Positions 43,974 to 62,850 of a stretch of DNA of 64,000 nucleotides are shown here, piece by piece. Source of the DNA: a virus; the IMG/VR virus record IMGVR_UViG_3300013123_000005, positions 18,397 through 82,396 of that record, one strand, 5' to 3'. Below the pieces are notes generated by a model. The model saw only the letters and a program-made list of their open reading frames with translations. It was not told the DNA's origin and did not search any database. The first letter of the stretch is position 1. The number at the start of each line of letters is the position of its first letter. Both the position numbers and the translations under genes were made by a program.

Positions 43974-44405
43974 ATGAATCTTAAAAAGATGATAAACGAG
44001 GCTTTCGAAGATCACATTAAGCAAGCCCAAGAAAAGCAACCAGAAATTATTCGTCATATCAAGTTGCAACTTCAAAGATTCGTTGAAGATGAATCGGTAT
44101 TCACAGATATGATCGATGCTTTTGAACGCATTATCCGTATGGCTATGGCAGATAATACTTCTGATTCTGTTGACAAGATTGCAAGAGATCTAGACTTAGC
44201 TCCAGCTTTTGTCAGTTTTCATACCAGAATAGCGAAGAGAGATAAGAGCGATGGTTTACTGAATAAGTCGATTGACGTTAAACAGATTGCTTCAACAATT
44301 CAGAAACCAAAAGCCAGAGAATATGTACCTTCCTATCGTGATGAGAATGAAATGATTTATGGCAATTCTTATTCAGAGCCCGGTGGACATAGAACGGGAG
44401 ATTAA
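43974..44405 (+). CDS. Helical protein with capsid-targeting-like N-terminus
   Basis: A 143-aa protein that begins MNLKKMINEAFEDHIKQA, the shortest form of the I-x-E-A helix motif shared by several proteins in this window (cleavage predicted after Glu9). A helical core follows (IRHIKLQLQRFVEDESVFTD, DMIDAFERIIRMAMADNTSD), then a polar tail. It lies between two duplicated virion genes. If the motif is a capsid-targeting signal, this is a candidate internal head protein. Confidence 0.55.
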   Translation: MNLKKMINEAFEDHIKQAQEKQPEIIRHIKLQLQRFVEDESVFTDMIDAFERIIRMAMADNTSDSVDKIARDLDLAPAFVSFHTRIAKRDKSDGLLNKSIDVKQIASTIQKPKAREYVPSYRDENEMIYGNSYSEPGGHRTGD

Positions 44406-44407
44406 TT

Positions 44408-45517
44408 TTGTCATATCTTTTTCAGTTCGATCAAGATGATATTATTCATTCAACAAACGAGGCGCATCCTCGTTCAGAGATGATAATCTTGTCAGATGGA
44501 ACAAAACAATGTTCTTGGGAGCCTTCTGAAAGAAATGCCGATGGTTATTTGACCTATGGGCTGTCTGCTTCAAGTGGACAGTTTGTATATAAAGATTCTT
44601 CGAATGCTGATAGTTTTCCGACAGCATCATACGGAGAACAGATTCAATTAAATTCTGGAATGACAACTGCTTCGATTTCTTTATACAAATATTGGACAGG
44701 TTTCGATACTTCAAGCTACGAACAATATTTGTCAGCCATCAAGTCAACACTAAAGTACAACACTCTTCTAAGTCCTCATTTTGCTTTTAGCTCGTCCTAT
44801 GGTGACAAGAGCGCTCAAGAGATGCTGATGATCAGCATTCCAGAGGCATTTTACGGAAGCAAAATACAAAAAGGATCTGTCAAGTTAAGTTTTCTTGAAA
44901 CTGAAGTGCTGTTTGGTACTCTAGAAGATTCAAATCAAAATGGCGAATTAATTCAGACGTTTGGTGCAACCGGATCTGGATTAGTAGCTGGAGTTGTACT
45001 ATATGATGAAGGCATTATCCTATTGACTGGTTCTTGGATCATTGATGACAGCATCGATGGATTGACTTATTCCGGAACATATCCGACTTGGAACACAGAT
45101 GGCAAGCCTAGGTGGTGTTATTGGGGCGCAGACAATACAGATGAAAGTTTTCCATCATATACTTTGGAGTTTAATGGAACAGTACAGACGCCAGTGATTT
45201 TGATGTATGCTCATGCACCAAAAGGATCGTTGAACCATTCCAATAATCCATCGTTTGTTGATCGAAATGATATGACAAGATATTTGAATTTTGCTAGCAG
45301 TTCTCATGGTTTTTATGAAGATGAGAAGGTAGGCTTAACCAACTCTATTTATTCAGAGTACAACGATGTACACAAAGATTTTCGAAAGCAAACATATATT
45401 TCGAAAGTTGCCGTTCTCGATGAAGACAAGAACGTAATTGCAATTGCCAGTTTAGCAGAGCCATTACGCAAACTTCAAGAGCGAGAGTACACGATAAAGA
45501 TTTCGATTGACGGATAA
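44408..45517 (+). CDS. Virion protein, paralogue of the 42930 product
   Basis: A 369-aa beta-rich, Ser/Thr-rich protein starting with TTG. It shares the SKIQKGSVKLSF block, the NHSNNPSFVDRND segment and the C-terminal AVLDEDKNVIAIASLAEPLR with the product of 42930. The separation by one small gene is consistent with an old tandem duplication. Likely a virion component of the same layer as its paralogue. Confidence 0.6.
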   Translation: MSYLFQFDQDDIIHSTNEAHPRSEMIILSDGTKQCSWEPSERNADGYLTYGLSASSGQFVYKDSSNADSFPTASYGEQIQLNSGMTTASISLYKYWTGFDTSSYEQYLSAIKSTLKYNTLLSPHFAFSSSYGDKSAQEMLMISIPEAFYGSKIQKGSVKLSFLETEVLFGTLEDSNQNGELIQTFGATGSGLVAGVVLYDEGIILLTGSWIIDDSIDGLTYSGTYPTWNTDGKPRWCYWGADNTDESFPSYTLEFNGTVQTPVILMYAHAPKGSLNHSNNPSFVDRNDMTRYLNFASSSHGFYEDEKVGLTNSIYSEYNDVHKDFRKQTYISKVAVLDEDKNVIAIASLAEPLRKLQEREYTIKISIDG

Positions 45518-45530
45518 GGAAGCAAATACA

Positions 45531-45707
45531 ATGAATTTAGCCAAAGAACAACTTAAGAAAATGATTCAAGAAGCTTTGAGCGAGGTTCTTTCAGAAGCCA
45601 CCTTTCAAGATAAAGTGAACGCTATCAAGAGAAGCGGAAAGTCAGAAGAGAGTGCTAAAAAGATTGCCGGTGCAATGGTAAGGGATGAAAAGAAAAAGGG
45701 CAAATAG
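45531..45707 (+). CDS. Small capsid-targeting-motif protein, 58 aa
   Basis: Begins MNLAKEQLKKMIQEALSEVL, a clear example of the shared amphipathic helix with I-Q-E|A. The second part, QDKVNAIKRSGKSEESAKKI followed by AGAMVRDEKKKGK, is Lys-rich and resembles the small 'S-x-E-S-A-K-K-I-A-G' helix pair of many phage proteins. Very basic after the predicted cut, which suits DNA binding inside a head. ATG 45531 is preferred over an in-frame start at 45507. Confidence 0.6.
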   Translation: MNLAKEQLKKMIQEALSEVLSEATFQDKVNAIKRSGKSEESAKKIAGAMVRDEKKKGK

Positions 45708-45709
45708 CA

Positions 45710-45913
45710 ATGCAAATTACTCGTGAAGAATTAAAAAGAATCATTTGGAAGACTCTTCAAGAGATTTTGGATGATAAGAAAGAGGCTGCTCAGACAACCG
45801 TTGGCATTGTTCAAGATGTAAGTCAATTGTATGCTCAGAAACAGAAGAATTATCGCAAGGATGCTGAAACAAAGCCCAAGAAAGAAAAGAAGTGTGATTG
45901 CGATGGCAAATAA
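45710..45913 (+). CDS. Small capsid-targeting-motif protein, 67 aa
   Basis: Begins MQITREELKRIIWKTLQEIL, the same helix with the cut site shifted to L-Q-E|I. The rest is polar (AQTTVGIVQDVSQLYAQKQK) and ends KKEKKCDCDGK, Lys-rich with a Cys-x-Cys end. Tandem with the 45531 gene, 2 nt after its stop. Function unknown beyond the motif. Confidence 0.55.
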   Translation: MQITREELKRIIWKTLQEILDDKKEAAQTTVGIVQDVSQLYAQKQKNYRKDAETKPKKEKKCDCDGK

Positions 45914-46121
45914 ACGAGTTTTAATAGAAGCAGAGCAAAGACAAGTGCTGTCTGGATTTACAAAGTCAACTCTTAATGCTCTTAGGATTGCAATGGATAA
46001 TGGCGTAACTGCTAGCCAACTAACAAGTGTTTTAACGAAGCTGTCAAGTCCAGATACAATCAATAGATTAAAAGCCACAGCTGGTGGCACAGATTCTATG
46101 TCAAGAGAGATTAATTCATGA
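45903..46121 (+). CDS. Small helical protein, 72 aa
   Basis: ATG 45903 overlaps the end of the previous gene. The protein reads MANKRVLIEAEQRQVLSGFT, then LNALRIAMDNGVTASQLTSV. The L-I-E-A near the start may be another form of the shared N-terminal motif, though the helix before it is only a few residues long. A 9-codon frame (46118-46147, MKLEEIVLS) overlaps its end. No known family. Confidence 0.5.
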   Translation: MANKRVLIEAEQRQVLSGFTKSTLNALRIAMDNGVTASQLTSVLTKLSSPDTINRLKATAGGTDSMSREINS

Positions 46122-46161
46122 AATTAGAAGAAATAGTTTTATCTTAAAAGAGTAAAAACAA

Positions 46162-46716
46162 ATGCTTTTAGGTGCTGATCTTTCAACTAGCATATGCGGT
46201 ATATCTGTTCTTGACGATGATGGCAAATTAGTTCTCTCAGAAGCCATCGATCTTCGCAATAAAAACAAATACAAAACATTAAACGAAAAAGCAGATTGTG
46301 TACGCAAGCACTTAACTGATATTGCTACAATCTATCCAATCGAAAAAGTCTATATCGAAAAGTCTCTGTTTATGTTCACAAGTGGGAAATCTTCTGTGAC
46401 AACACTGTTTCTGTTGGCAGGATTTAACACGCTTGTCAGCTATTTTTGCTATGATATCTTCAAGGTAGAGCCAGAATATATTTCAGCTACCACTGCCAGA
46501 AAAAGAGTCGGAATCGTGCTTGACAAATCTCAAGACACCAAAAAGCAGATTGTTGATTTTGCTAGACAGGAACCCGGTTTTAGTGTATCTTGGACTCCAA
46601 GTGGAAACTACGTACCATCGTGTGCTGACAGAGCAGATGCCTGGGTAGTTGCCAAAGCCTGTTGGATGGGTTCTAAGAGTGCAAAATCAAGCAGAAAAGC
46701 TAAAGATACTGACTGA
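46162..46716 (+). CDS. RuvC-like Holliday-junction resolvase
   Basis: A 184-aa RNase H-fold nuclease. Asp5 in LLGADLSTSICGISVLD, a Glu in VYIEKSLFMFTSG and an Asp pair in CADRADAWVVAKA form the RuvC-type metal site. RuvC cuts four-way junctions symmetrically; in phages such genes clear recombination intermediates before packaging and could replace T4 gp49. It overlaps the primase gene by 38 nt from the preferred start, within a DNA-metabolism block. Confidence 0.8.
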   Translation: MLLGADLSTSICGISVLDDDGKLVLSEAIDLRNKNKYKTLNEKADCVRKHLTDIATIYPIEKVYIEKSLFMFTSGKSSVTTLFLLAGFNTLVSYFCYDIFKVEPEYISATTARKRVGIVLDKSQDTKKQIVDFARQEPGFSVSWTPSGNYVPSCADRADAWVVAKACWMGSKSAKSSRKAKDTD

Positions 46717-47629
46717 CATTTTAGGCGATTTCTATCTTACTGGAGTCGAGAGGCTTTTCGCTTGTCCTAAGTGTCAGCACGATAAACGAAAACTTAGCAT
46801 CAATCTTCAAAAATCAAAATTTAAATGTTGGCACTGCGACTGGAGAGGAAATCTCAATCGTCTTGTCAAGCAACTTGGTAATCAAACTCAAAGAACTGTT
46901 TGGAAAGAATTGACTGGACAAGTCGATTACGATCTCGGTTCTGTCAATGAAGATATGTTCTCGGAGCATATCGAAGAAGAAATAATCGAACCAATCGAGT
47001 TGCCAACAGATTTCGTTAGTTTAGTTAAGAACACATATACATCAAGTGATAAAGCCGCCCTGAAGTATCTCAAATCGAGAGGGTTAACAACCAGAGATAT
47101 TTTTCAATGGAAAATTGGGTACTGTGCCAAGGGTGATTACAAGCAACGAATTATTGTACCTTCTTTTGATTGTCAGGGAGAGCTAAACTACTTTGTCGGA
47201 AGAACCTATGTCGACAGCAATTACAAGTATTGGAATCCAAAAGTTCCAAAGAACATGATTTTTAATGAGCTTTATGTTGACTGGAAAAAAGAGATTGTTT
47301 TGGTCGAAGGCGTCTTCGATCAATTCGTGGCTGGCACTAATTCGATTGCCCTCTTGGGAAGCTCTCTAGACGAACACAACGCCCTATTCCAGCGTGTTGC
47401 GATGTCAGAGACTAGAGTTATAGTGGGTCTTGATCCTGATGCTGAGAAAAAGGCAAATAGGCTCATTTCTGAAATGTTGAAATACGGAATCGAAATTTAT
47501 AAAATGCAAATTGAGAACAAAAAGGATATTGGAGAGATGACCAAGGAAGAATTTCTGGAATGTAAGCGAGAAGCAAAGCCAATGTCAAACGACAACTATC
47601 TTTTGTATCTAATTGAGAGGATTAAGTAA
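46679..47629 (+). CDS. DNA primase (zinc finger + Toprim)
   Basis: A 316-aa protein from GTG 46679 (TTG 46649 would add ten residues). The N-terminus has a four-Cys/His zinc finger, FACPKCQHDKRKLS and FKCWHCDWRGN, as in T4 gp61/DnaG. The C-terminal Toprim domain has VLVEGVFDQFV (E of the E-G-x-x-D) and VIVGLDPDAEKKAN (D-x-D). It makes RNA primers for lagging-strand synthesis. T4 gp61 is of similar size. No replicative helicase is encoded nearby in the window. Confidence 0.85.
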   Translation: MQNQAEKLKILTDILGDFYLTGVERLFACPKCQHDKRKLSINLQKSKFKCWHCDWRGNLNRLVKQLGNQTQRTVWKELTGQVDYDLGSVNEDMFSEHIEEEIIEPIELPTDFVSLVKNTYTSSDKAALKYLKSRGLTTRDIFQWKIGYCAKGDYKQRIIVPSFDCQGELNYFVGRTYVDSNYKYWNPKVPKNMIFNELYVDWKKEIVLVEGVFDQFVAGTNSIALLGSSLDEHNALFQRVAMSETRVIVGLDPDAEKKANRLISEMLKYGIEIYKMQIENKKDIGEMTKEEFLECKREAKPMSNDNYLLYLIERIK

Positions 47630-47634
47630 TAACA

Positions 47635-50600
47635 ATGAAGATAGCAGCTTTTTCAGATCTCCACGTAAAGACTCTCAAGTATCATGAAGAATATCTTGCC
47701 GTATTTCAGGAGTTTTATAAGGATCTTCGAGAACAAAAGCCTGACGTAATTGTATGCGCTGGCGACATTGCTCACTCAAAGGTTGTGCTGTCGCCAGAAT
47801 ACTTCTCTATTGCCGCCAAGCTGTTCAAAGAGTTGGCTTCTATTGCGCCATTGTATATCCTAGCTGGTAATCATGATGCTTCCTTTCGTGGCATGACGCT
47901 TCGCAATGCTTCTAGACTTGATGCTATTACTCCAATCATCGAAGCTCTTGATAATTCAAATATTCACTATATGAAGCAGTCTGGAGAATACAACATCAAT
48001 GACAATATAGTCTTAAATGCAATGTCGTTGTTTGATGTAGATGGTTGGATGCAGCCAACAGATCCAAGCAAGATCAATGTAGCAGTTTTTCATGGAGCGA
48101 TCATCGACGCTTCAACAGACGTTGGCTATACGGTTGATCGTAGTTCTGGAATTGATCTGAGTTATTTTGATTCGTTTGATGCAGCAATTTTTGGAGACAT
48201 TCATCGTCGTCAATTCTTTTCGAACACCCGAGGATATGTCGGTAGTTTGATTCAGCAGAATCATGGGGAAGGCGTAGAGAAAGGCTATAGTATTTGGCTC
48301 ATTAAAAACAAGAATGATATCAGCGTAGAATTTAGACCTCTTCGCAATCCAAAGCCATTCATTACTGTCAATTTGGATCTGGCAGGTAATGTTCCTGCAA
48401 ATCTAGAGATTCCAGTTGGTTCACATGTGCGTGTGGTTGCTCATTCTTATATCAGTCTAGACAAGATGCGAAAGTCTCTCGATGTTGTCAAATCGAAGTA
48501 TTTGCCAGAAGATATTTCCTTTGTTAACAAGATTGACGAGACAAAGTTACAAGAGAGTGTTGCTGTATCTTCTGTTGTTCGCGGTGAAAATCTTCGTTAT
48601 GATGAAGTACAAGAACGAATGATTCGAGATTATCTGAAAGATTTTAAGCCTGATGATGAAACCATGACTTCGATTTTGAAGTTAAATAATCAATATAATG
48701 CTGCAATTAAGAACGATGAAGAAGTCGCTCGTAATGTTCAGTGGTCTGTCAAAAAGATTGAATGGGATAATTTGTTCAATTACGGTTCTGGCAACTATAT
48801 GAATTATGAGCAATTAAGCGGAGTTGCAGCTTTACTAGGAAAAAGTTTTGTAGGAAAAACTTCTACCATTGATGCCCTATTGTTCGGATTATTCAATACT
48901 ACTTCAAAGAACGAAAGAAAGAATGTCAACGTAGTCAATCAACACAAGAATGATGCCGTTGTTCGTCTATGGCTTGAAGCAAATGGAATCTCTTATCGTA
49001 TTGAAAGACGAGTAGAAAAGTACGTTAAGCGGCTTCATGGAGTTGAAACAATCGAAGCTAAGACGGACGTTGATTTTTGGGAAATGCAAGCTGATGGAAT
49101 AGAAATTTCAAGAAATGGAGATACCAGAAGCGATACAGATAGGAACATTCGTACAATTTTTGGAACGGTTGAAGATTTTCTTTTGACTTCGTTATCTTCT
49201 CAGCATGGAGGTTTGCAGTATATCTTTGAGGGTTCAACGAAGCGCAAGGAAATTCTTGCTCGCTTTTTGGATCTTGACAGCTTTGACAAGAAGTTCAAGT
49301 TAGCCAAAGAAGATTCTTCGACCATCAAGGGAGCCTTGAAGCGCGTTGAAGGAATCGATTATGATACGACACTTTCACATGCCAGAACAAAGCTGCACCT
49401 CAATGAAAAAGAAGCTCAAAGAGTCGAGAACAAGCTGACAGAAATCAACAAGACTATTGCGGACAACCAGAATCAGATTGATTCATTTAAGCAGCAGTTG
49501 GCTTTGATTCCAAAGGATATCAAGGAAATTACTGAGACAGAAGAAGAACTAGCTAAGAAGCTAATTCAACAAGATGCATTGACTTCGGAAAGAGATTCTT
49601 TGCTGGATCGCAATGAAGAGCTTAACAAGCTTATCGCGAAGTTGAATCATTTGCTTGATACGTTTGATATTGAAGGTTGTCGAAAGCAACAAGATTTAAT
49701 CGAGCAACTATCTTCTGAAGCCAGGAAGATTGAAGAAAAAGTTGCAGAACTTAATAGAAACAAGTTGACAAATGATAAGAAGACTCAATTGCTTCTTGAG
49801 GTTCCTTGTGGAGAACAGTTTCCTGCGTGCAAGTTTATTCGAGATGCGTTCAAGGCAAAGACAGAGAACGAGTACGTTTGTAATAATCTAAAGTTGCAGT
49901 CAGAACAGCTTGAAAAATTGACAGCAGACAAGGAAGCATTGCAGCCAACAAAAATTGAGGATCTACTATACAAATATGCCGAATTAGCCTCTCAGAAGAC
50001 AGAGTTTGAGCAGGAGGTACTAACTAACCAGACTCTAATTGAAAAGGATGAAAACGCCCTTTCTGTGCTTATAGGATACGTTTCTGAGTTGCAGCAGAGA
50101 ATTGCAAAGAGCAAGGCAGATCAAAAGCTGATTGATAGCGCCAAGAGTCTGCTTGAGCAATTATCTGAAGCGGAAAAGTTGTCAATCAAATATGCTAAAG
50201 AACTCAGTAGGCTAACAACACAACGTCTTGAAGCCTATAAGACACATGGTAAACTTGAAGGTGAAATCAACTCTGTAACCGAAAAGATCGAAGAGCGAGA
50301 AACATTAAGAAATGAATTTGCGTCTTATGATTTGTTCATGCGTTGTATGCATTCTAACGGTATCAGTTACGACATTATCAAGAGTATGCTTCCAGTTTTA
50401 AATAATGAAGTTGCGAAGGTTCTAGCAAATATTGTTGATTTTGAAGTGTTTTTCGAAAATAATGATGATCGGTTGGACATTTTCATTAAGCATCCAAAGC
50501 ATGAGTCTCGTCCAATTGAGATGGGTTCTGGAGCAGAGAAAACAATTGCTGCAATGGCAATTCGATTGGCTTTAACGAAGATTGGCAATTTACCAAAATT

Positions 50601-50796
50601 TTCAACCTTTATTTTGGACGAGCCTGCTACCGGACTTGATGAAGAACGAATGGAAGGGTTTATTCGTGTTTTCGACTTGTTGAAGCTTCAATTTAGGTTG
50701 GTGATTCTCATTTCTCACCTTGATAGTCTCAAAGATGTAGCCGATTTGATCATCACGATTGATAAGGTTGATGGCTACGCCTCCGTTCGGATCTGA
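47635..50796 (+). CDS. SbcD-SbcC (Mre11-Rad50) fusion nuclease/ATPase
   Basis: A 1053-aa single chain combining two normally separate proteins. Residues 1-~360 are an Mre11/SbcD/gp47 phosphoesterase: SDLH (D8, H10), AGD44, GNH80D, VFH153G and GDIH190. Residues ~370-1053 are a Rad50/SbcC/gp46 ATPase: Walker A GKSFVGKTS (402-410), coiled coil, a hook-like CGEQFPAC (725-732), coiled coil, signature GSGAEKT (964-970), Walker B FILDEPATGLDE (from 992) and H-loop His1028. The hook has C-x6-C rather than the usual C-x2-C. It would process DNA ends for recombination-dependent replication. There is no stop or start at the junction. Confidence 0.9.
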   Translation: MKIAAFSDLHVKTLKYHEEYLAVFQEFYKDLREQKPDVIVCAGDIAHSKVVLSPEYFSIAAKLFKELASIAPLYILAGNHDASFRGMTLRNASRLDAITPIIEALDNSNIHYMKQSGEYNINDNIVLNAMSLFDVDGWMQPTDPSKINVAVFHGAIIDASTDVGYTVDRSSGIDLSYFDSFDAAIFGDIHRRQFFSNTRGYVGSLIQQNHGEGVEKGYSIWLIKNKNDISVEFRPLRNPKPFITVNLDLAGNVPANLEIPVGSHVRVVAHSYISLDKMRKSLDVVKSKYLPEDISFVNKIDETKLQESVAVSSVVRGENLRYDEVQERMIRDYLKDFKPDDETMTSILKLNNQYNAAIKNDEEVARNVQWSVKKIEWDNLFNYGSGNYMNYEQLSGVAALLGKSFVGKTSTIDALLFGLFNTTSKNERKNVNVVNQHKNDAVVRLWLEANGISYRIERRVEKYVKRLHGVETIEAKTDVDFWEMQADGIEISRNGDTRSDTDRNIRTIFGTVEDFLLTSLSSQHGGLQYIFEGSTKRKEILARFLDLDSFDKKFKLAKEDSSTIKGALKRVEGIDYDTTLSHARTKLHLNEKEAQRVENKLTEINKTIADNQNQIDSFKQQLALIPKDIKEITETEEELAKKLIQQDALTSERDSLLDRNEELNKLIAKLNHLLDTFDIEGCRKQQDLIEQLSSEARKIEEKVAELNRNKLTNDKKTQLLLEVPCGEQFPACKFIRDAFKAKTENEYVCNNLKLQSEQLEKLTADKEALQPTKIEDLLYKYAELASQKTEFEQEVLTNQTLIEKDENALSVLIGYVSELQQRIAKSKADQKLIDSAKSLLEQLSEAEKLSIKYAKELSRLTTQRLEAYKTHGKLEGEINSVTEKIEERETLRNEFASYDLFMRCMHSNGISYDIIKSMLPVLNNEVAKVLANIVDFEVFFENNDDRLDIFIKHPKHESRPIEMGSGAEKTIAAMAIRLALTKIGNLPKFSTFILDEPATGLDEERMEGFIRVFDLLKLQFRLVILISHLDSLKDVADLIITIDKVDGYASVRI

Positions 50797-50851
50797 GTCG
50801 CTCACATTCTAGCCCTCTAATTACAATAGAATTCGATTAAGGAACTTTCAA

Positions 50852-51154
50852 ATGAACGATAAGATCCATCTTAAGCAAGAACAGCTAACAGTACTAATCA
50901 AGGAGGCTTTGAAAGAAATCGTCGACGATCATCTTAATGAAGAAGCTGGAGAATTATACGGATATGATAGGTATTATTCGGCTGGTATTCTTGATGGTTC
51001 AGTTGGCAAGGAAATGAATGATTCGGTTTCTCGTGGATTAAAGGGTGGTACTGCGAAAAAGGCTTATGAAGAGGGCTATGCTGTAGGGCTTAAACAATGG
51101 GTAGCTCGACAGCCAATTAAGAAAGTTCAACAAGCTCCAAGGTGGGAGGAATAA
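50852..51154 (+). CDS. Capsid-targeting-motif protein, 100 aa
   Basis: Begins MNDKIHLKQEQLTVLIKEAL and continues KEIVDDHLNEEAGELYG. The helix ends I-K-E|A, with more L/I-x-E sites after it. The second half (YDRYYSAGILDGSVGKEMND, then GLKGGTAKKAYEEGYAVGLK) is Gly/Lys-rich. It lies just upstream of a small membrane protein and 1.4 kb before terminase. Candidate internal or core head protein. Confidence 0.55.
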   Translation: MNDKIHLKQEQLTVLIKEALKEIVDDHLNEEAGELYGYDRYYSAGILDGSVGKEMNDSVSRGLKGGTAKKAYEEGYAVGLKQWVARQPIKKVQQAPRWEE

Positions 51155-51313
51155 ATGTTCATGAAGTTTATGTCAAGAAAATTATTGGTATTGGTGGCTG
51201 CAACGGCACTGCTATATTTTGGTAAAATTACTCCGGATTTATGGAGTTATGTTGCCATGACTTATCTTGGCGCACAAGCATTGCTAGACTCGAAAGTTTC
51301 AAAAAAGCAGTAG
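51155..51313 (+). CDS. Small membrane protein, holin-like size, 52 aa
   Basis: Directly follows the previous stop. A basic start (MFMKFMSRK) precedes a hydrophobic segment (LLVLVAATALLYFGKI), then ITPDLWSYVAMTYLGAQALL, a second hydrophobic helix, and a Lys-rich end. The P-D-x-W-x-Y-V-A-x-T-Y-L-G-x-Q pattern is common in small phage membrane proteins of unknown function. Two spans and size suit a class II holin, but location in the head block and lack of a nearby endolysin make that uncertain. Confidence 0.55.
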   Translation: MFMKFMSRKLLVLVAATALLYFGKITPDLWSYVAMTYLGAQALLDSKVSKKQ

Positions 51314-51318
51314 GATAA

Positions 51319-52537: not shown

Positions 52538-52540
52538 TGA

Positions 52541-54604
52541 ATGCCAAAGTATGTTCCAACAAAAGCAGAGATTCAGAAAGAGATAATTCGTTGCGGTAAC
52601 GATCCAAGCTATTTTCTTAAAAATTACGTAAAGATCGTTCACCCAACCAAGGGTCTAGTGCCATTTCTTCTCTACCCGTTTCAGGAAGAGACTTTAAAAA
52701 AGTTTGAAGATCATAGATTCAACATCGTTCTGAAATCAAGACAGATGGGTCTGTCAACATTAACATCTGCTTATGTGGCTTGGTTTATGTTGTTTCAGAA
52801 GAACCGAAACATTCTTGGTATAGCAACCAAATTGTCTGTTGCTGTCAACCTTGTAAGAAAAGTCAAGACAATCTTTTCAAATCTTCCAGGTTGGTTAGTT
52901 GATAATACGGCACAGATTTCTGTTGACAATAAGCAATCTTTGGAACTAACAAATGGTTCTCGATTTGTTGCTTCTGCCAAATCTGAAGATGCTGGTCGTT
53001 CTGAAGCTCTGTCGTTGTTGGTAGTTGACGAGTGTGTTGCCGGAAGTACAAAAGTAACTGTTCGAAGCAAAAAGACTGGCGAGATCAGAGAAATCGAAAT
53101 TCAAGAGCTATACGATTTGTATACGATCAAAAGTATAACAGAGTGGGAAGTCTTAACGCCTTCTGGTTGGAGTATTTTTTCTGGTGTCAAGAAAGTCTCT
53201 AAAAAGTGTTTTTATCGTATCAATACCACTAGAGGCGAGTTAGTTTGCTCTTATGAGCATAAACTTAAAATTTATGATGGTCGCTTTATGGCAGCTAATA
53301 AATTGCAAGTTGGTCAACTTCTATCTGAACAAGTAGAAATATTAGAGATTAAATATTTTGAAGAGGACATCGAGCTTTATGATCTGCTTGAAGTCGAAAA
53401 AGATCATGAATTTTATGCAAATGGAATTGTAAGTTCGAATTGCGCACACATCGAAGGTATGTCTGATATATGGACTTCGATTGGTCCTACAATCACATTG
53501 GGTGGTCGATGCATTGCTCTTAGTTCTCCCAATGGTGCTCAAGGTTGGTTCTACAAGTATTACGTTGACGGTGAGGCTGGAAGAAACGATTTTTGTGCAA
53601 CCAAGTTACATTGGCGATTGCATCCTGATCGTGATGATGAGTGGTTTGAAAAAGAAACTCGCAATATGTCAAAACGCGAGGTATCTCAAGAGTATTCATG
53701 CGGATTTTTATCTTCTGGTGCCACGCTCATTGATGGTGAAGATATCAAGAGAATGGAAGATTCGCAAGTACGCGATCCTGTTGAACGAATTGCTTTTGAC
53801 AGAAACTTGTGGATCTGGCAACATTACGATCCTGTTGCAAATTATTTGATTTCCGCTGACGTTGCCAGAGGTGACGGAGAAGACTATTCTGTTTTTCATA
53901 TTCTCCGATTGGATACGATGGAAGTGATCGGAGAATATCAAGGGAAATTAACTCCAGATCTCTTTGCAGATCTGTTAGCAAATACTGGCAGAATGTATGG
54001 TGGCTGCATGATCGTTGTTGAGAATAATAACTTGGGTTGGATGGTGGCGAACAGGCTTAAAGATGCAATTCAATACAAGAATCTGTATTATGAATTAAAA
54101 GGCACTCACGATCACGTTGATCCAATCAGAGCCTCAAGAAACGATAAGGCTCATTGTGGCTTCAATACTGCTCCAAACGGTTTGGGCAATAGAACACACA
54201 TTCTTGGTAAGCTGGAAGAGTTTGTTCGAAACAGGCAGATAACAATTCGTTCTGTACGTTTATTGAACGAAATGAAGACCTTCATCTACAAAGAGACTGG
54301 CAAAGCAGAAGCAGCAAAAGGATATAACGACGATCTTGTAATGGCTCTGGCAATTGCTTGTTGGGTACGCGAGACAGCATTAACACAAAATGTAAAAGAA
54401 TTGGCATATGCGAAAGCTCTATTGACTTCTATCTATGTATCTACAGCAACGATGGATACGAGAATTGAAGGACAAATTGGGTATGGTTCTGGTCATGACT
54501 CGAAAGAGATAATGCAGAAGAGAAAAGAAGCCAGAGGACAACTTGATATATCAAAAGATGAAGTTATTCCAGGCGGCATGATGTTTCCAGTTTTTGTTGG
54601 ATAG
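52541..54604 (+). CDS. terL: Terminase large subunit with in-frame intein
   Basis: A 687-aa precursor: a 551-aa gp17-like terminase plus a 136-aa intein. The ATPase has Walker A KSRQMGLSTLTS (near residue 65) and Walker B LLVVDE/CAH, which the intein splits after E164. The nuclease domain has ISADVARGDGEDYS, VVENNNLGW and YNDDLVMALA, the three acidic clusters of the RNase H-fold terminase nuclease. It packages DNA into proheads through the portal encoded 0.8 kb downstream. Splicing must occur for ATPase activity, since the insertion point is in the hydrolysis motif. Confidence 0.95.
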   Translation: MPKYVPTKAEIQKEIIRCGNDPSYFLKNYVKIVHPTKGLVPFLLYPFQEETLKKFEDHRFNIVLKSRQMGLSTLTSAYVAWFMLFQKNRNILGIATKLSVAVNLVRKVKTIFSNLPGWLVDNTAQISVDNKQSLELTNGSRFVASAKSEDAGRSEALSLLVVDECVAGSTKVTVRSKKTGEIREIEIQELYDLYTIKSITEWEVLTPSGWSIFSGVKKVSKKCFYRINTTRGELVCSYEHKLKIYDGRFMAANKLQVGQLLSEQVEILEIKYFEEDIELYDLLEVEKDHEFYANGIVSSNCAHIEGMSDIWTSIGPTITLGGRCIALSSPNGAQGWFYKYYVDGEAGRNDFCATKLHWRLHPDRDDEWFEKETRNMSKREVSQEYSCGFLSSGATLIDGEDIKRMEDSQVRDPVERIAFDRNLWIWQHYDPVANYLISADVARGDGEDYSVFHILRLDTMEVIGEYQGKLTPDLFADLLANTGRMYGGCMIVVENNNLGWMVANRLKDAIQYKNLYYELKGTHDHVDPIRASRNDKAHCGFNTAPNGLGNRTHILGKLEEFVRNRQITIRSVRLLNEMKTFIYKETGKAEAAKGYNDDLVMALAIACWVRETALTQNVKELAYAKALLTSIYVSTATMDTRIEGQIGYGSGHDSKEIMQKRKEARGQLDISKDEVIPGGMMFPVFVG
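53033..53440 (+). mobile_element. Mini-intein in terminase, 136 aa
   Basis: Begins with Cys (CVAGSTKVTV) after ...VVDE and ends ...GIVSSN before Cys (CAHIEGM). Block A (CVAGSTKV), block B-like VCSYEHKL with its His, and block F/G-like LLEVEKDHEFYANGIVSSN are in the right order. There is no endonuclease domain. The penultimate residue is Ser instead of the usual His, seen in some inteins. Removing it restores an uninterrupted VVDECAH Walker B region. Confidence 0.88.
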
Positions 54605-54614
54605 GAGAGGCTGA

Positions 54615-55409: not shown

Positions 55410-55411
55410 AG

Positions 55412-57340
55412 ATGGCTACAAATACTCGCAATCCGTATAATAATGAGAATGAGCTATTCAAGAGATTAACGAGACTGTTCAGTGGTCCAATTATCAATCT
55501 CAAAGCTCAGACTTATCATGATCTAAAGCGAAAGCAACTTGATAAATACAAGTTCAAGAGTGCTTCAGGAAAGAGTTTCAAGAGAGCAGAGTACAACCCA
55601 TTTGAGAGTATTCAGTTAGCACAACTAAGCAATCAAAACAGAACGAGCAGATATATTGATTATGATCAAATGGAGTATGAGCCAATTATTGCTTCAGCAT
55701 TGAATTTGTATATGGACAGCATTACATTTAGTACGGATATGAATGAAATGTTACGTATTCAATGTTCAAATGCTCAAATCAAAAGCGCATTACATACGTT
55801 ATTTTATGATATTCTAAATATCGAATTAAATGGTTCCGGTTGGGTGCGAAGTACAATTAAATATGGTGATTTTTTCCTGTATCTCGATATCGATGAAAAG
55901 ACTGGTATCCGAAATGCTATAGCTTTGCCAGCGCATGAAATCGAACGCCTTGAGGGCGAAGATCCAACCAATCCTAACTATGTGCAATATCAATGGAACT
56001 CTGGTGGTCTAACGTTTGAATCTTGGCAAATGGCACACTTCAGACTGCTTGGTAATGATAAGATGGCACCGTACGGTACGTCAATATTAGAACCCGCACG
56101 GCGTATCTGGAGACAATTAAATTTGTTAGAAGATTACATGCTTTCATATCGTATTGTTCGTTCTTCCGGTCGAAGAGTCATTTATCTTGATGTTGGACAT
56201 ATTGCTCCAGAAGACGTAGAACAGTACGTATTGAACGTTCAAAATGTAATGAAGAAGAATCAGGTACTAGATCAAACTTCTGGTCGATTCGATCTCCGTT
56301 ACAATGCTCACTATGCAGTTGAAAATGATTTCTATGTTCCTATTCACGGTGATTCCAAGACGAGAATTGATGAACTAAACGGTTCGTCCTATAATGGCGG
56401 AATTGATGATGTAAAATATCTGAAAGACAAACTGTTTGCTGCTCTTCAAGTTCCTCAATCGTATTTGTTCAGAGGTGAAGGTGGCGATGAAGATAAGACC
56501 ACCCTGGCAACAAAAGATGTAAGATTTGCTCAAACAGTATTGAGACTTCAGAAGAATTTCCTTTCGGAGCTTTATCTGATTGCAATTGCTCATCTTTACG
56601 TTTTGGGATTCAGAGACAAAGATCTTATCGACTTCAAACTAAGCTTCAACAACCCTTCCAGAATTGCAGAGCTACAAGAACTTGAATATATGAAGACCAA
56701 GTTTGATGTTGGTGCTTCAGCTACAGAAAATATGTTCTCTCGACGTTATGTTGCCAAGAATATTTTTGCATTGTCTGAAGAAGAGTTTGAACGTAATCAA
56801 AGAGAACGTTACTATGATGCTGTACAAGATGCAGCCATTGCAGCTATTTCAGAAGGCGAAGAAGGTGGAATGGGTGGCGGATCTGGTGGAGATCTCTTTG
56901 GTGATATGGGTGGTGAAGGAGATGCAGATATTGACGAACTAACCGATGATGTAATGGGAGATGCGGGAGAAGGTGAAGCTGGAGGTGGAACAGATGAAGA
57001 TTCAATGCTTCTTGCTGCACCAGCCAAGAGAGAAGAAACAACCACTCCAAGATCAAATGGCAAGATGTATCGACCAGAAGTTGTTGATAAGCGTTCAATT
57101 GGAGCAAGAGCAAGAAACATGAACGCTCAATGGGGCTCTTCCAGCACCAAGAACACAACTCGTAATGTTTGGAAGGGTTATCCAGAACTCAAGAGTCTTT
57201 CTCGTGGAATCGCTGAGAAGCAAGACACTAGTTATGAACGAGAAGAAACGGATCTTTTGCGAACTAGTGTTCAAACAAGAAGATTGGTCGAAGCATTTGA
57301 AAAGAGAACAAAGAAGAATGAGAACGAAACAGCACAATAA
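55412..57340 (+). CDS. Portal vertex protein, gp20-like
   Basis: A 642-aa protein. The core IASALNLYMDSITFS, AHFRLLGNDKMAPYGTSILE and RRIWRQLNLLEDYMLSYRIV is typical of T4 gp20-like portals, as is the crown/stem block ALQVPQSYLFRGEGGDEDKT. After about residue 480 the chain is low-complexity, Gly/Glu/Asp-rich and then basic (residues ~485-640). The dodecameric portal is the DNA entry gate and anchors the packaging motor. Overlaps the next gene by 23 nt. Confidence 0.92.
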   Translation: MATNTRNPYNNENELFKRLTRLFSGPIINLKAQTYHDLKRKQLDKYKFKSASGKSFKRAEYNPFESIQLAQLSNQNRTSRYIDYDQMEYEPIIASALNLYMDSITFSTDMNEMLRIQCSNAQIKSALHTLFYDILNIELNGSGWVRSTIKYGDFFLYLDIDEKTGIRNAIALPAHEIERLEGEDPTNPNYVQYQWNSGGLTFESWQMAHFRLLGNDKMAPYGTSILEPARRIWRQLNLLEDYMLSYRIVRSSGRRVIYLDVGHIAPEDVEQYVLNVQNVMKKNQVLDQTSGRFDLRYNAHYAVENDFYVPIHGDSKTRIDELNGSSYNGGIDDVKYLKDKLFAALQVPQSYLFRGEGGDEDKTTLATKDVRFAQTVLRLQKNFLSELYLIAIAHLYVLGFRDKDLIDFKLSFNNPSRIAELQELEYMKTKFDVGASATENMFSRRYVAKNIFALSEEEFERNQRERYYDAVQDAAIAAISEGEEGGMGGGSGGDLFGDMGGEGDADIDELTDDVMGDAGEGEAGGGTDEDSMLLAAPAKREETTTPRSNGKMYRPEVVDKRSIGARARNMNAQWGSSSTKNTTRNVWKGYPELKSLSRGIAEKQDTSYEREETDLLRTSVQTRRLVEAFEKRTKKNENETAQ

Positions 57341-58148: not shown

Positions 58149-58226
58149 TTGGCAATTTCCGACACAAAGCTAAGAAATTATATTGTGAAGGTTCTCTTGG
58201 AATTAACGAAGGATTTGGAACACTAA
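58149..58226 (+). CDS. 25-aa peptide made of the capsid-targeting-like helix
   Basis: TTG 58149 immediately follows the previous stop with GGAG upstream; TAA 58224-58226 overlaps the next ATG. The peptide AISDTKLRNYIVKVLLELTK followed by DLEH is essentially only the shared N-terminal helix (K-L-x-x-x-I-x-x-x-L-L-E). T4 has very small core proteins in the same place (gp67, gp68 region). Its size leaves doubt, but the tight coupling on both sides supports it. Confidence 0.5.
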   Translation: MAISDTKLRNYIVKVLLELTKDLEH

Positions 58227-58777
58227 TGCCAGCAACCATTCAAATAAGAGTCGGCAATAACAACAATGCCGAAGAACAAAAACCTGAAGTTGCACCATTG
58301 ACGATTAAGCTCAATGCTCGAAAGACAATGGATGGCAATATTATGGTAAATGATCATACAGACGTTTATATCATGTTGATGCCATCACAAAAGAAGGTTT
58401 TGACGTTCGCCAAAGAAGAATTCGGAGATCATGTTTACGACACACAGAATCGCTTGTTCAAATTCTTGACAGCGAAGGGTGTTATTCTTCCAGATTCGAT
58501 TCATGCGGGAAATATCTATAGTTCAATGGAAGCAACATATCCAGAATCATCAAAAGATTATGATCCTGCAAAGATGGTCTTGTTCATGATTGCCAAGTGG
58601 ATTGAGGAAGAAAAACCCTATCTATCTTGGGGGCAATCATTAGAAGATGCTCAAGAAGAACAATTGCTTGAGCCTGATGCAGAGAATAGTACGGAATTGG
58701 GTGAGGTGCCACAAAAGGAACGAAAGGGTTCCATCAATGCATATACGTCAATGGGGCGTTATATGTACGGGATTTAA
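58226..58777 (+). CDS. Conserved head-region protein, 183 aa
   Basis: The block LNARKTMDGNIMVNDHTDVY followed by KKVLTFAKEEFGDHVYDTQN and RLFKFLTAKGVI is conserved in many large myoviruses between portal and protease. A helical region (YDPAKMVLFMIAKWIEEEKP) and an acidic tail follow. Likely head or neck-related by position; biochemical role unknown. Confidence 0.6.
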   Translation: MPATIQIRVGNNNNAEEQKPEVAPLTIKLNARKTMDGNIMVNDHTDVYIMLMPSQKKVLTFAKEEFGDHVYDTQNRLFKFLTAKGVILPDSIHAGNIYSSMEATYPESSKDYDPAKMVLFMIAKWIEEEKPYLSWGQSLEDAQEEQLLEPDAENSTELGEVPQKERKGSINAYTSMGRYMYGI

Positions 58778-58791
58778 GGAGATAACGATAG

Positions 58792-59499
58792 ATGATTAAC
58801 GAACAGCAAAAAAGAGCAATTTTAGAGCCAGAGCAAGTATTCAATCCCGTTCCGTCTTTGCAAGAGCGCGTTGTTGTATTGGAAACGGAAGAGGAAACAG
58901 CCGATCAAAAGGCGGCTTTGAATGCTGCCAATAGTCCTGATGCAGAAAATCCATTTGTGACAATTGAAGATTTAAATGGAATCACTGGAAGCGCAGGCGA
59001 TGTAAACTTGTTATTAGAGAATTTGATTTCATTATATACGTATCATAATATAGATGCCATTTCTTCTGGTTCTGCATTTGAGCTAGCAATTTTAAAAGAT
59101 GGAAATTGGGGCTTCGTATCAGATTTTAACGAAGACTATAGTTTTATGTTTGTGTATGAGACTGGTTCTTCAGCGTCAATTCCGGTATATACTAGTAGTT
59201 TAGCTTTAATGGCTACTGATGTTTACATTAGAAACGCTGACGATACGTTCATATTTAATAATGATTCGTTTACCTTTTCTACTATTCCGGTTTATTTGTC
59301 GGATGGTAGATGTATTGAAGTTGCAAAGGATCTTGATTGCACTGGCTCGTCTGAACAATTTTCAAAAGTCTATATAACAAGTCCAAATTGGGAAACGTTT
59401 ACGTTATCTACGCTCTTGGCGAATATTCCGACAGCTGAAAATAAGAGAATTTATACGAACAACAGTATTTCTTTGGGATTTGAACGAACTGTAGTTTAG
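58792..59499 (+). CDS. Beta-rich virion protein, fibre-like N-terminus, 235 aa
   Basis: Behind AAGGAGAT. ADQKAALNAANSPDAENPFV followed by TIEDL is a repeat-like element of phage fibre and decoration proteins ('ALNAA-x-SP-x-A-x-NPF'). The rest is beta-rich, with Ser/Asp/Thr (YIRNADDTFIFNNDSFTFST). It could be a head fibre or an outer decoration protein. Named function not supported. Confidence 0.5.
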   Translation: MINEQQKRAILEPEQVFNPVPSLQERVVVLETEEETADQKAALNAANSPDAENPFVTIEDLNGITGSAGDVNLLLENLISLYTYHNIDAISSGSAFELAILKDGNWGFVSDFNEDYSFMFVYETGSSASIPVYTSSLALMATDVYIRNADDTFIFNNDSFTFSTIPVYLSDGRCIEVAKDLDCTGSSEQFSKVYITSPNWETFTLSTLLANIPTAENKRIYTNNSISLGFERTVV

Positions 59500-59511
59500 T
59501 GGAGTTCTTAT

Positions 59512-59733
59512 ATGAAGCTGGCAGAATTAATTCTTAAGAAGATGATTCGCGAAGCAGTTGAGGATGTCAAGAAAGATAGCGATCAAAAAGACTCTTGGCA
59601 GGCAATGAACGCGCTTGAATTATCAGAATATATGCAGGCTTTGAGAGCTAGGGTGCGATCTGAAGTGCAAGAGATTGAGCGGATAAATCAACGTTTGCGA
59701 AAGTTAGGATATACAATTGATGGAAAACATTAA
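59512..59733 (+). CDS. Small capsid-targeting-motif protein, 73 aa
   Basis: Begins MKLAELILKKMIREAVEDVK, one of the clearest examples of the motif (I-R-E|A). The remainder is helical and Arg-rich (LQALRARVRSEVQ-like segments). It sits immediately upstream of the prohead protease, where T4 has its prohead core proteins. Candidate core/internal protein and protease substrate. Confidence 0.6.
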   Translation: MKLAELILKKMIREAVEDVKKDSDQKDSWQAMNALELSEYMQALRARVRSEVQEIERINQRLRKLGYTIDGKH

Positions 59734-61450
59734 AAGCCAGATAACAGATCAAGTAGCTGGCAAGTTTCTTCTGACAGAGTGGTTTGGTCTTTGTCCTGGC
59801 GGCGTTTGCCAAGATTTACTAACTGAAGCCGAGAAGCTTGATATCAAAAACAATAAAGCTGTTTATCTTACTGGCATTATGCAAAGAGCAGATGCCAAGA
59901 ATGGTAATGGTCGAGTATATCCATATGAAACACTTAAGCGAGAGATGGACGTTTATCAGAAAATGATCAATGAACATCGAGCGTTAGGTGAGTGTGTTGA
60001 TGGGGAAACAGAGTGCTTGACGAAGGATGGCTGGAAATCGATTGTTGACGTTAAAGAAAATGAAGAAATTTATACATTTAATGTCGACACGGAAGAAATG
60101 CAACTTCAGCCAGTCTTAATCAAGACTGAACGACTGCATCAAGGAAAAATGATTCATATTCATAACAAGAACAAGATTGATATGTTGCTCACTCCAGAGC
60201 ATAAAATGATTTTGTGGGATCGATACGATAAGTCGTTTGAAATCACTGCTGGAGAGTTTGCTGAGAATTTCGAGACAGATTCGGGACTTCAACATTCATA
60301 TTTTAGACGTGGCGGCATGAAGTGGAATGGAAAGCAAGCTGACACTGTTACAATTGGTTCTCATACGTATGATGCTGATCTTTGGGCAGCTTTTCTTGGT
60401 ATTTATTTAGCAGAGGGTTTTACTTCTTATGACAAGAAAAATTGGGCAGAAGGTTGGAGAGTTTTTGTAGTTCAAACAAAAGAAGACACCAAAAATGAAA
60501 TTCGAAAATTATTTAATGCATTATTCGCTAGCGAGAGAATTTATGAGACTACAAATAAAATTTCCAATAAGACTTCTTTTTCTGTTGTAAACAAAGACGT
60601 ATTCGATTATGTAAGACCATTGGGGAAATCGTGGGAGAAATACATTCCAGAGGAAGTTAAAGAATGGGACGTTCGTAGACTTGAAATTTTGCTCGAATGG
60701 ATGCTTAAGGGCGATGGCAGAAATCGACACAACAAAAAAGGCGAATTGATGAGGGAGTTGCACACAACTTCTTATCGATTAGCAAATGATGTGTCTGAAA
60801 TCTTTCTGAAATTGGGTAGTGGTTCTGTAATGTCCGAGAGAACACAAAAAGATCGGATGATTGAGGGTAGGTTGATTGAAACCAAGAATTGTAGAAAATT
60901 GTACATTTCGTCTGAAAGTGTTACAAATCGTTCTTATTTTTATAAGAAATTTTTGAATATTAACGAAGTGGAATATGACGATAATGTATACTGTGTAACG
61001 GTTGAGAACAAAACTTGGATTGCTCGTAAAAATGGTAGAATATTTATTACCCATAATTGTGATCACCCGACCTCAGAATTAGTCGAATTAAAAAATGCTT
61101 CTCATATGATCACAAGAACTTGGTGGAACGGAAAGGACGTTATGGGGACGCTTAAAGTGCTTTCCACGCCTTCCGGTAAAATTCTGGAAGCATTAGTGCG
61201 TGATGGCGTTCAGGTTGGAATCTCTTCCAGAGGTCTTGGAACGCTAACAGAAACCAGTGAAGGTTTGATGGTTGAAGATGATTTTGAGCTTGTTTGTTTT
61301 GATATTGTATCGGAACCATCAACTACCGGAGCTTTCATGAAGCCGACAATGTTGCATGAATCAAAAGTTCGTTTTAGCGACGTATATACAAAAGCAGATC
61401 GAATTAATCGAATGATGATCAAAATTTTGAACGGAGTAAACAATAAATGA
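59720..61450 (+). CDS. Prohead protease (gp21-like) with in-frame intein
   Basis: A 576-aa precursor: a 221-aa protease plus a 355-aa intein. The protease extein starts MENIKSQITDQVAGKF and has GIMQRADAKNGNGRVYP, then GE/CDHPTSELVELKNASH, the catalytic His motif, and VGISSRGLG with the active Ser. This is the U9/gp21-like serine protease fold. It would mature the head proteins, cutting at L/I-x-E. ATG 59720 is preferred over TTG 59717. The intein splits GE-CDHP, so the protease cannot be active before splicing. It overlaps the preceding motif gene. Confidence 0.92.
   Translation: MENIKSQITDQVAGKFLLTEWFGLCPGGVCQDLLTEAEKLDIKNNKAVYLTGIMQRADAKNGNGRVYPYETLKREMDVYQKMINEHRALGECVDGETECLTKDGWKSIVDVKENEEIYTFNVDTEEMQLQPVLIKTERLHQGKMIHIHNKNKIDMLLTPEHKMILWDRYDKSFEITAGEFAENFETDSGLQHSYFRRGGMKWNGKQADTVTIGSHTYDADLWAAFLGIYLAEGFTSYDKKNWAEGWRVFVVQTKEDTKNEIRKLFNALFASERIYETTNKISNKTSFSVVNKDVFDYVRPLGKSWEKYIPEEVKEWDVRRLEILLEWMLKGDGRNRHNKKGELMRELHTTSYRLANDVSEIFLKLGSGSVMSERTQKDRMIEGRLIETKNCRKLYISSESVTNRSYFYKKFLNINEVEYDDNVYCVTVENKTWIARKNGRIFITHNCDHPTSELVELKNASHMITRTWWNGKDVMGTLKVLSTPSGKILEALVRDGVQVGISSRGLGTLTETSEGLMVEDDFELVCFDIVSEPSTTGAFMKPTMLHESKVRFSDVYTKADRINRMMIKILNGVNNK
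59993..61057 (+). mobile_element. Intein with LAGLIDADG endonuclease, 355 aa
   Basis: Starts with Cys (CVDGETECLTKDGW) after ...RALGE and ends ...RIFITHN before Cys (CDHPTSE), a canonical H-N/C junction. Block B MLLTPEHKM carries the T-x-x-H. Two LAGLIDADG helices are visible: FLGIYLAEGF (near residue 225 of the precursor) and LEWMLKGDGRN (near 325), with a plausible acidic residue in each. It is thus a full, probably still mobile intein. Length 1065 nt is a multiple of three and removal restores the GECDHP protease motif. Confidence 0.92.
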
Positions 61451-61755
61451 AATTAACTGAATCTCAATTAAAGCAAATTATTAGAGAGATCATCAAGGAA
61501 ACTTGGAGAGATTTTCCATCTGACACTTATGCTAGCTCTGGCAACGGGCATTCTGTTAATAGAGAAGTAGATTGGCTTAAAAATCAGCAAGATGCTAGTG
61601 CAAATGATGTTTCGTCTTGGCAAATCGTATCTTATGGAAAAAAGGTAGCCAAAGTGAATGCGTCGAACGAACGACAGGCTTTGCAAAAGTTCTTCGTGCA
61701 AAACAAGATCGATTTTAAAAATCAAAAACTATATGACGTGGTGCCAGCATCATGA
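61447..61755 (+). CDS. Capsid-targeting-motif protein, 102 aa
   Basis: Begins MKLTESQLKQIIREIIKETW, with I-R-E|I and I-K-E|T as possible cut sites. The rest is soluble with Ser/Asn and a final KVNASNERQALQKFFVQNKI. Overlaps the protease stop by 4 nt and the next gene by 4 nt. Candidate core/internal head protein. Confidence 0.6.
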   Translation: MKLTESQLKQIIREIIKETWRDFPSDTYASSGNGHSVNREVDWLKNQQDASANDVSSWQIVSYGKKVAKVNASNERQALQKFFVQNKIDFKNQKLYDVVPAS

Positions 61756-62303
61756 AATTAACTGAAGCAGTATTAAAGAAAATCATCCTTAAAGAGATTG
61801 CCGATCTTGATCTGCCTTTTGTAAATGAAGATGAGACAGTTCCGAATCCACAAATTGAACAGTGCATTGAAACATTGACTGATACTTTGATCGATACATA
61901 TGTTTCTCAGCATTCTGATTATCCAGGTGAATATGAGCATGAATCATTATCTGACAAGATTGAGCAGATTGTTCGCTCGCATGTTCAAGAAGCAATTCGA
62001 CAAGTACAAGACTTTGCAAAGCATCATGGACCAAAAGAGTTTGCATTGGAGGAAGGATTTTTGGGATTTGGAAAGAAAGATCCGGCAGATAAGCTGCTGA
62101 AAGACCCTGGATTTAGAGCCGCTTGTCACAGTTTTAGACAGTCGCCTCCGGGTGAATTGGGAATGATTAGTCGAAAGATGCGAATTGTAGCGGCACAAGT
62201 TTTATCTGATCAGGATATTGCTTTTACATCTGATGGCGAAGACGGCTTGGACATATTGGTGACTAAAGCCTATCAGCGATATGTTCGAGAAAATTCAATC
62301 TAA
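61752..62303 (+). CDS. Capsid-targeting-motif protein, 183 aa
   Basis: Begins MKLTEAVLKKIILKEIADLD, the motif with the cut site at L-K-E|I. A helical middle (LTDTLIDTYVSQHSDYPGEY, VQEAIRQVQDFAKHHG) and acidic character follow. It lies in the T4 scaffold region, between protease and the protein at 62320. Possibly a core or scaffold component. Confidence 0.55.
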   Translation: MKLTEAVLKKIILKEIADLDLPFVNEDETVPNPQIEQCIETLTDTLIDTYVSQHSDYPGEYEHESLSDKIEQIVRSHVQEAIRQVQDFAKHHGPKEFALEEGFLGFGKKDPADKLLKDPGFRAACHSFRQSPPGELGMISRKMRIVAAQVLSDQDIAFTSDGEDGLDILVTKAYQRYVRENSI

Positions 62304-62319
62304 GAGAAACGAGGAAGAA

Positions 62320-62850
62320 ATGGATCGCAATAAATTAAAGGCACTTTTGAAGCCATTAATCAAGGAAGCGTTAAAAGAATGCATTCTTGAAGAAGGTGTA
62401 ATTTCAACGATTATTCGAGAGTCAATGAGTTTGACTGTCAATGATGTTGCCCCTCGTCAAGTTGTCAGAGAACAGAGAGCAAAGCCTTCTTCTGGAAAGA
62501 ACAAGTTTGCGGAAGCATATGAAAGTCATTCTCTTGGAGAAGACGATCCTTCGGAAAATAGTGAAGTAGATGATGACGCTTTGATTGCCAAGCAAGAAGA
62601 GATTGCAGCTTCCAGAAGAAGAATCGCTGAATCTCTTCGAAGTAGAATTGGTGCAGACATATTCGAAGGAACAGAAGCAATTGGCGGCGATCCAATGCAA
62701 GAACTAGCTGCTGGTAATAATCCTGGCGTTGCTGCCGCAAAGGGTCCATTGGCTGATGTAGATCCAAATGACGAAGGAGTCAATTTAGGTCTAATTACAG
62801 AGATTGCCGGTGGCAGAAAAAACTGGAAGCAAGTAATGGAGAGAGTATAA
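62320..62850 (+). CDS. Scaffold-like protein with capsid-targeting motif, 176 aa
   Basis: ATG 62320 has GAGG five bases upstream; the frame extends to 62281 but that part overlaps the previous gene without a ribosome site. MDRNKLKALLKPLIKEALKE carries the motif with I-K-E|A. The remainder is acidic with helices (ALIAKQEEIAASRRRIAESL) and Gly/Ala-rich at the end (ELAAGNNPGVAAAKGPLADV). Acidic, helical and downstream of the protease, it is in the place of T4 gp22 scaffold. I favour a core/scaffold role. Confidence 0.55.
   Translation: MDRNKLKALLKPLIKEALKECILEEGVISTIIRESMSLTVNDVAPRQVVREQRAKPSSGKNKFAEAYESHSLGEDDPSENSEVDDDALIAKQEEIAASRRRIAESLRSRIGADIFEGTEAIGGDPMQELAAGNNPGVAAAKGPLADVDPNDEGVNLGLITEIAGGRKNWKQVMERV

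Follow-up and report, generated by a model that had tools for sequence, protein, structure and literature searches.

The capsid-targeting sequence (CTS) of phage T4 is carried by IPI, IPII, IPIII, and Alt, and is cut by gp21; only a few proteins of a single model phage group are known to have it. In IPIII, targeting to the prohead core needs no more than the first 10 residues, which gp21 then removes, residues 8 and 10 controlling this processing (PMC9026906). Comparable signals are described in two other systems. In phage P1, an N-terminal signal of DarB is enough to package a reporter into the head (PMC9024508). In phiKZ and SPN3US, the N-terminal propeptides of ejected head proteins are cut after x-x-Glu by a gp21-related S80 protease (PMC5694885).

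The DNA analyzed here (the window: 64,000 nucleotides, positions 18,397 to 82,396 of IMG/VR record IMGVR_UViG_3300013123_000005) is part of an 82.4-kb contig of an uncultivated virus with T4-type head genes, namely a terminase, a portal, and a gp21-type protease. Several of its proteins share an N-terminal amphipathic helix, referred to below as the tag. With a probability of roughly 0.8, this tag is a lineage-specific capsid-targeting propeptide working like the T4 CTS, with another sequence and a large, fast-changing set of cargo proteins. While the prohead is forming, the tag on each cargo protein would dock on the core inside the assembling head, and the gp21-type protease would then cut after I/L-x-E at the helix end. 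The mature protein would thereby be freed inside the capsid, stay with the DNA, and be ejected with it. Packaging, cleavage, and injection of the tagged proteins are inferred. The tag exists as a portable module (MKITKxQLKQIIKE/EL, the slash marking the predicted cut) fused to many small, unrelated, fast-changing cargo proteins, and as a fixed variant (LKPLIKE/C or A) on one conserved head-cluster protein.

Tagged starts and head genes in the window

The original prediction listed at least nine helix starts. Eight of the eleven positions that it named are retained (Table 1), while three are unsupported. The ORF at 58149 starts with TTG, is 25 codons long (LAISDTKLRNYIVKVLLELTKDLEH), and lacks a homologue in the relatives; at 45903 and 51681, nothing more than VLIEA and KLIEA is present, and there is no helix profile. 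No homologues of the 43974 protein are found among the relatives. All the tags of the window contig lie in its last 20 kb, around the head genes, and no tag occurs in the first 62 kb. The gp21-like protease, which the original prediction placed within this cluster, is indeed identified there by its family match.

Table 1. Head genes and N-terminal tags of the window, in window positions (a slash marks the predicted cut; scores are those of the 15-column profile).
Feature	Position	Strand	Basis
Putative short tag MNLKKMINE/A, 143-aa protein	43974..44000	+	Sequence; plausible, shorter than the canonical form
Tag MNLAKEQLKKMIQE/A, 58-aa protein	45531..45572	+	Profile score 17.9
Tag variant MQITREELKRIIWKTLQE/I, 67-aa protein	45710..45763	+	Profile score 15.6; P1 Glu displaced
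Tag MNDKIHLKQEQLTVLIKE/A, four extra residues, 100-aa protein	50852..50905	+	Sequence
Large terminase (gp17-like), apparent intein inside	52541..54604	+	phrog_5989 and phrog_2; intein read from sequence
Portal (gp20-like)	55412..57340	+	phrog_213, E 6.7e-57; 80 relatives kept
Tag MKLAELILKKMIRE/A, 73-aa protein	59512..59553	+	Profile score 9.8
gp21-type prohead protease with apparent intein	59717..61450	+	phrog_207, E 1.9e-45; 85 relatives
Canonical tag MKLTESQLKQIIRE/I, 102-aa protein	61447..61488	+	Profile score 35.0
Tag MKLTEAVLKKIILKE/I, 183-aa protein	61752..61796	+	Profile score 21.0
Tag variant MDRNKLKALLKPLIKE/A, conserved head-cluster protein (62320-62850)	62320..62367	+	58 homologues

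The conserved protein at 62320-62850 lies downstream of the protease, with the 61447 and 61752 genes in between. Its homologues start with MKKxELKKxLKPLIKEC, the variant LKPLIKE being fixed and followed by C or A. This protein was considered as the scaffold gp22, but a better candidate is offered by a second contig (L002), which is the same as the window contig across the portal and runs beyond the window end to a gp22-like protein and the major capsid protein (MCP). The gp22-like candidate (L002:19625-21268), directly upstream of the MCP, starts with MSDLYKSAIADAKLLREAAIKS, and the gp22-like scaffold of the lineage generally with MSxLLxxAIxDAxxLKEAALKN. As the canonical tag is lacking there, the earlier claim that the scaffold is marked by the same tag is not borne out.

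Other features of this region can be mentioned. Apparent inteins split the terminase and the protease (Cys start, HN-C end, family matches in two parts). A 1053-aa ORF (47635-50796) appears, judging from its sequence, to be an SbcD/gp47-type nuclease fused to an SbcC/gp46-type ATPase. In L002, a ribosomal protein S21 gene (19342-19569, PF01165) is located in the head cluster and adjoins the gp22-like protein; S21-like genes are similarly present in G001, G004, and Mel-JY01. A 416-aa protein with DUF5661 and a GNAT acetyltransferase domain (L002:18084-19334) is placed between the protease and the MCP.

Enrichment, conservation, and cargo of the tag

The I/L-x-E motif, used as the family criterion in the original prediction, is not significant alone. 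It is found near the N-terminus of 18 of the 70 window genes, versus 12.5 expected, and this plain count was dropped as a test. A stricter motif, [LIVM][LIVM]xE, occurs in 8 genes versus 5.8 expected in the window, and is concentrated after position 43900 (7/26 genes versus 1/44 before, Fisher p = 0.003). Statistical power, which the bare rule lacks, is provided by a 15-residue profile. A search of this genome and its relatives with an alignment or HMM of the N-termini had been suggested with the original prediction; with the profile, the result is clearly significant. The training set was 192 tagged proteins of other contigs, and the scan covered nine contigs of the lineage. On the window contig, 4 of 3,107 start codons (61447, 61752, 45531, and 45710) reach 10 bits, versus none of 44,983 other codons. 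Across the nine contigs, matches of at least 15 bits are found at 35 of 38,678 start codons versus 7 of 603,111 others (78-fold enrichment), and at 20 bits, at 27 start codons versus 2 others (210-fold). Several of the non-start matches sit only a few residues away from a start.

Chance amphipathic helices ending in I/L-x-E would be consistent with the lack of enrichment of the loose motif in the window, but not with a profile 78- to 210-fold enriched at starts in other genomes. As a general explanation, chance is extremely improbable; it is already refuted for the canonical tags, and is possible for 45903, 51681, and 58149. Like the members of the T4 CTS functional class, the tag is located at the extreme N-terminus, spans 10-20 residues, and is amphipathic. 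Nearly all profile matches end in I/L-x-E, which is partly imposed by the search pattern and independent of it in the profile-scanned genomes.

The portal search yielded at least 599 related stretches, and a degenerate DNA pattern retrieved at least 120 stretches from IMG/VR. In the IMG/VR relatives, which are uncultivated and mostly marine, the canonical form is MKITKxQLKQIIKEEL, and in many portal relatives, several unrelated genes begin with the canonical start MKITKSQLKQIIKEEL; one of these relatives (L076) has a run of six tagged genes. Clustering of the bodies of the 291 tagged proteins collected gives 221 groups at E<1e-3, and 227 when the filter is tightened. As in the T4 functional class, the tag is thus borne by multiple proteins of a single phage that are unrelated to each other. 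Column conservation stays high as far as residue 16, the high values being partly imposed by the search pattern, and then falls to background.

The tandem runs and the A-rich 5' ends of the tagged genes could point to a remnant of recent gene duplication, or to a conserved translation-enhancing leader, rather than to a protein signal. Nevertheless, conservation extends to codon 16, and when tags from one locus are compared, synonymous changes make up 50% of their codon differences, versus 3.9% in the bodies, so it is the peptide that is kept, not the DNA. With synonymous differences in the tags and bodies devoid of similarity, selection acts on the peptide and not on DNA or mRNA, which makes a duplication or leader origin most improbable.

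The cargo is diverse. One protein has a DnaJ domain from residue 18, directly after the tag, and others are pentapeptide-repeat, LRR, or LysM proteins; most have no known family, and searches of 120 cargo proteins against Pfam and PHROGs returned almost no functions. A single-sequence fold of a DnaJ-tagged cargo protein was of low confidence (pLDDT 58.5) and was set aside. A small module (EVSSEKQRRWACAQKDKP...SADEAEEMC) is repeated in several tagged proteins of five contigs (L216, L068, L148, L187, and L081), which suggests shuffled cargo parts.

Two window proteins show weak Pfam matches to PF25734, RelB_like_antitoxin (E 0.016 and 0.018), as would be seen if the helix were the N-terminal dimerization helix of a toxin-antitoxin-like family. 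These matches score 15.4 and 15.2 bits, both well below the curated cut-off of 27, and the bodies are mutually unrelated, with DnaJ, pentapeptide-repeat, and LysM proteins among the cargo. Moreover, the strict pattern has a single match in 257 Gb of prokaryotic genomes, in which antitoxins are frequent, and the contig concerned encodes relatives of these phages' proteins. An antitoxin origin is, therefore, very hard to sustain.

For the capsid-targeting propeptide, a broader reading can be proposed, which appears somewhat favored but is held less firmly: a mostly marine T4-like lineage would have a plug-in system based on a single address peptide, both transferable and cleavable, cargo being exchanged behind this constant tag, and other T4-type lineages would have tags of their own. 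Such swapping would give each phage its own head-packaged, injected set. If so, the tag would pick >200 families of candidate injected effectors straight from metagenomes. Should the tag do the job of the T4 CTS, candidates for injected host-takeover or anti-defense proteins could be recognized from sequence alone in mostly unannotated uncultivated phages.

Predicted cut site and association with the protease

Aligned to T4 gp23 (cut at FLTE/A), the MCPs of the lineage show LLENQAKELLRE/A. The inferred site reads [LIV][LIV][R/K]E in 20 of 22 MCPs, P2 being R or K, and the other two carry S; in 19 of the 22, the residue that follows is Ala. The protease itself starts with MSKKLLRE or similar in most relatives, LLRE being present in 58 of 85 (LLIE in T4 gp21); the window protease has KFLLTE/W where its relatives have LLRE. 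The tags end in I-I-[K/R]-E, similar to the inferred MCP site L-L-R-E/A and the protease start L-L-R-E. They have K/R at P2 in 25 of 44 cases, versus 19% in generic sites, and another residue in the other 19. P1' is mostly Glu in the tags, versus Ala in T4 and in the MCPs of the lineage. The predicted tag end thus agrees with the inferred MCP and protease sites in a way that is good but not perfect.

A gp21-type protease is encoded by 16 of 21 tag-bearing contigs (each over 70 kb) versus 2 of 25 random contigs (30-216 kb; Fisher p = 2.4e-6), the random contigs being shorter on average, which favors the difference somewhat. Of the five protease-less tag contigs, four have their tags no more than 6 kb from the end at which the protease would be expected, and a truncated portal forms the end of one of these four; apart from G024, the protease-less contigs are broken ones. 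With a relaxed pattern, no tag is found in the 25 random contigs. Since the two protease-bearing random contigs have no tag either, the tag is lineage-specific and not general to gp21-bearing phages. Of 86 tags in the tag-bearing genomes, 52 are no more than 20 kb away from the protease, versus 24 expected after rotation (p = 0.0005). The occurrence of the tag together with the protease is partly due to common ancestry. Agreement in strand between tags and protease was not retained as a test: about 90-100% of the coding in these genomes lies on a single strand, which makes it uninformative.

The helix could instead be a docking tag for another shared partner, such as the portal, the tail, a host protein, or a phage enzyme, uncleaved and with no capsid address. 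The predominance of Glu at P1' and the location of some tagged genes far from head genes (e.g., in G020 and G023) would fit this idea. Docking to another partner is nevertheless unlikely: the tag goes with the protease, its end matches the inferred MCP and protease sites, conservation ends directly after the predicted cut site, and a parallel exists in T4. The capsid-targeting reading of the original prediction is, therefore, retained, leaving aside its scaffold part: it is favored by the enrichment at starts, the unrelated bodies, the link with the protease, the absence from random contigs, the proximity to the head cluster, and the agreement of the cut sites.

Comparison with known head-packaging signals

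The original prediction saw the same pattern here as in the T4 CTS. This is upheld for the architecture, but the sequences are not alignable beyond it. In both cases, a short N-terminal amphipathic stretch with a hydrophobic-x-Glu end is borne by several unrelated proteins, in phages with a gp21-type protease and T4-like head genes. T4 gp22 (MLKEQLIAEA) and IPII/IPIII (MKTYQEFIAEA) have the same architecture. Compared with T4 IPI, IPII, IPIII, and gp22, the layout is the same, while the length differs and there is no recognizable sequence match. The peptide here (MKITKxQLKQIIKE/E) is four residues longer than that of T4 (MKTYQEFIAE/A), favors K/R at P2 and Glu at P1', and serves a far larger cargo set. 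Regarding the T4 core proteins (gp22, gp67/gp68), a resemblance to the gp22 start is seen in the tag variant on the conserved 62320-type protein near the protease, whereas the MCP-adjacent gp22-like scaffold of this lineage has a different start.

Other T4-type phages appear, from their N-termini, to have their own versions. The consensus is matched by one phage record only, LR756508, an uncultured huge phage with about ten related tags within 49 kb around the portal. Flavobacterium phage immuto has MKKSQLRQIIKEALD and MKKSQLRQIIKEA; two of its neighboring, otherwise different proteins (L312:16795 and 17796) have the common start NF(D/N)L(K/R)(K/S)FL(V/T)ENKLT, possibly the tag of that phage. 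Agrobacterium phage Atu_ph07 has a tandem array (L316:29485-41378) of about ten proteins whose short N-terminus has an L-x-E end (M[RK]WxQL[TN]E). By its position, this array is taken to lie within CDS 31-76, reported to hold 29 virion proteins identified by mass spectrometry. Its tag differs in sequence from the one described here, and since most of its proteins are paralogues, their common start can be explained by shared ancestry. After this start comes a YRG(M/I) motif reminiscent of ADP-ribosyltransferases, with no ART match in Pfam, and a 778-aa member has a Zeta_toxin/AAA_33 domain (E 1.5e-14).

Beyond T4, the DarB signal has a length of 10 to 30 residues, and the Dar proteins show no common consensus; the phiKZ/SPN3US propeptides, mostly >100 residues, have no shared short tag. 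In the non-subscription literature searched, neither this motif nor such a code outside T4, P1, and phiKZ-type phages was found. As far as this literature shows, the kind of signal is already known from T4, P1 DarB, and SPN3US, while the tag sequence, its scale, and the diversity of its cargo are new. If the tag does the job of the T4 CTS, it shows that a code of this type can be lineage-specific, extend over the whole genome, and serve hundreds of cargo families.
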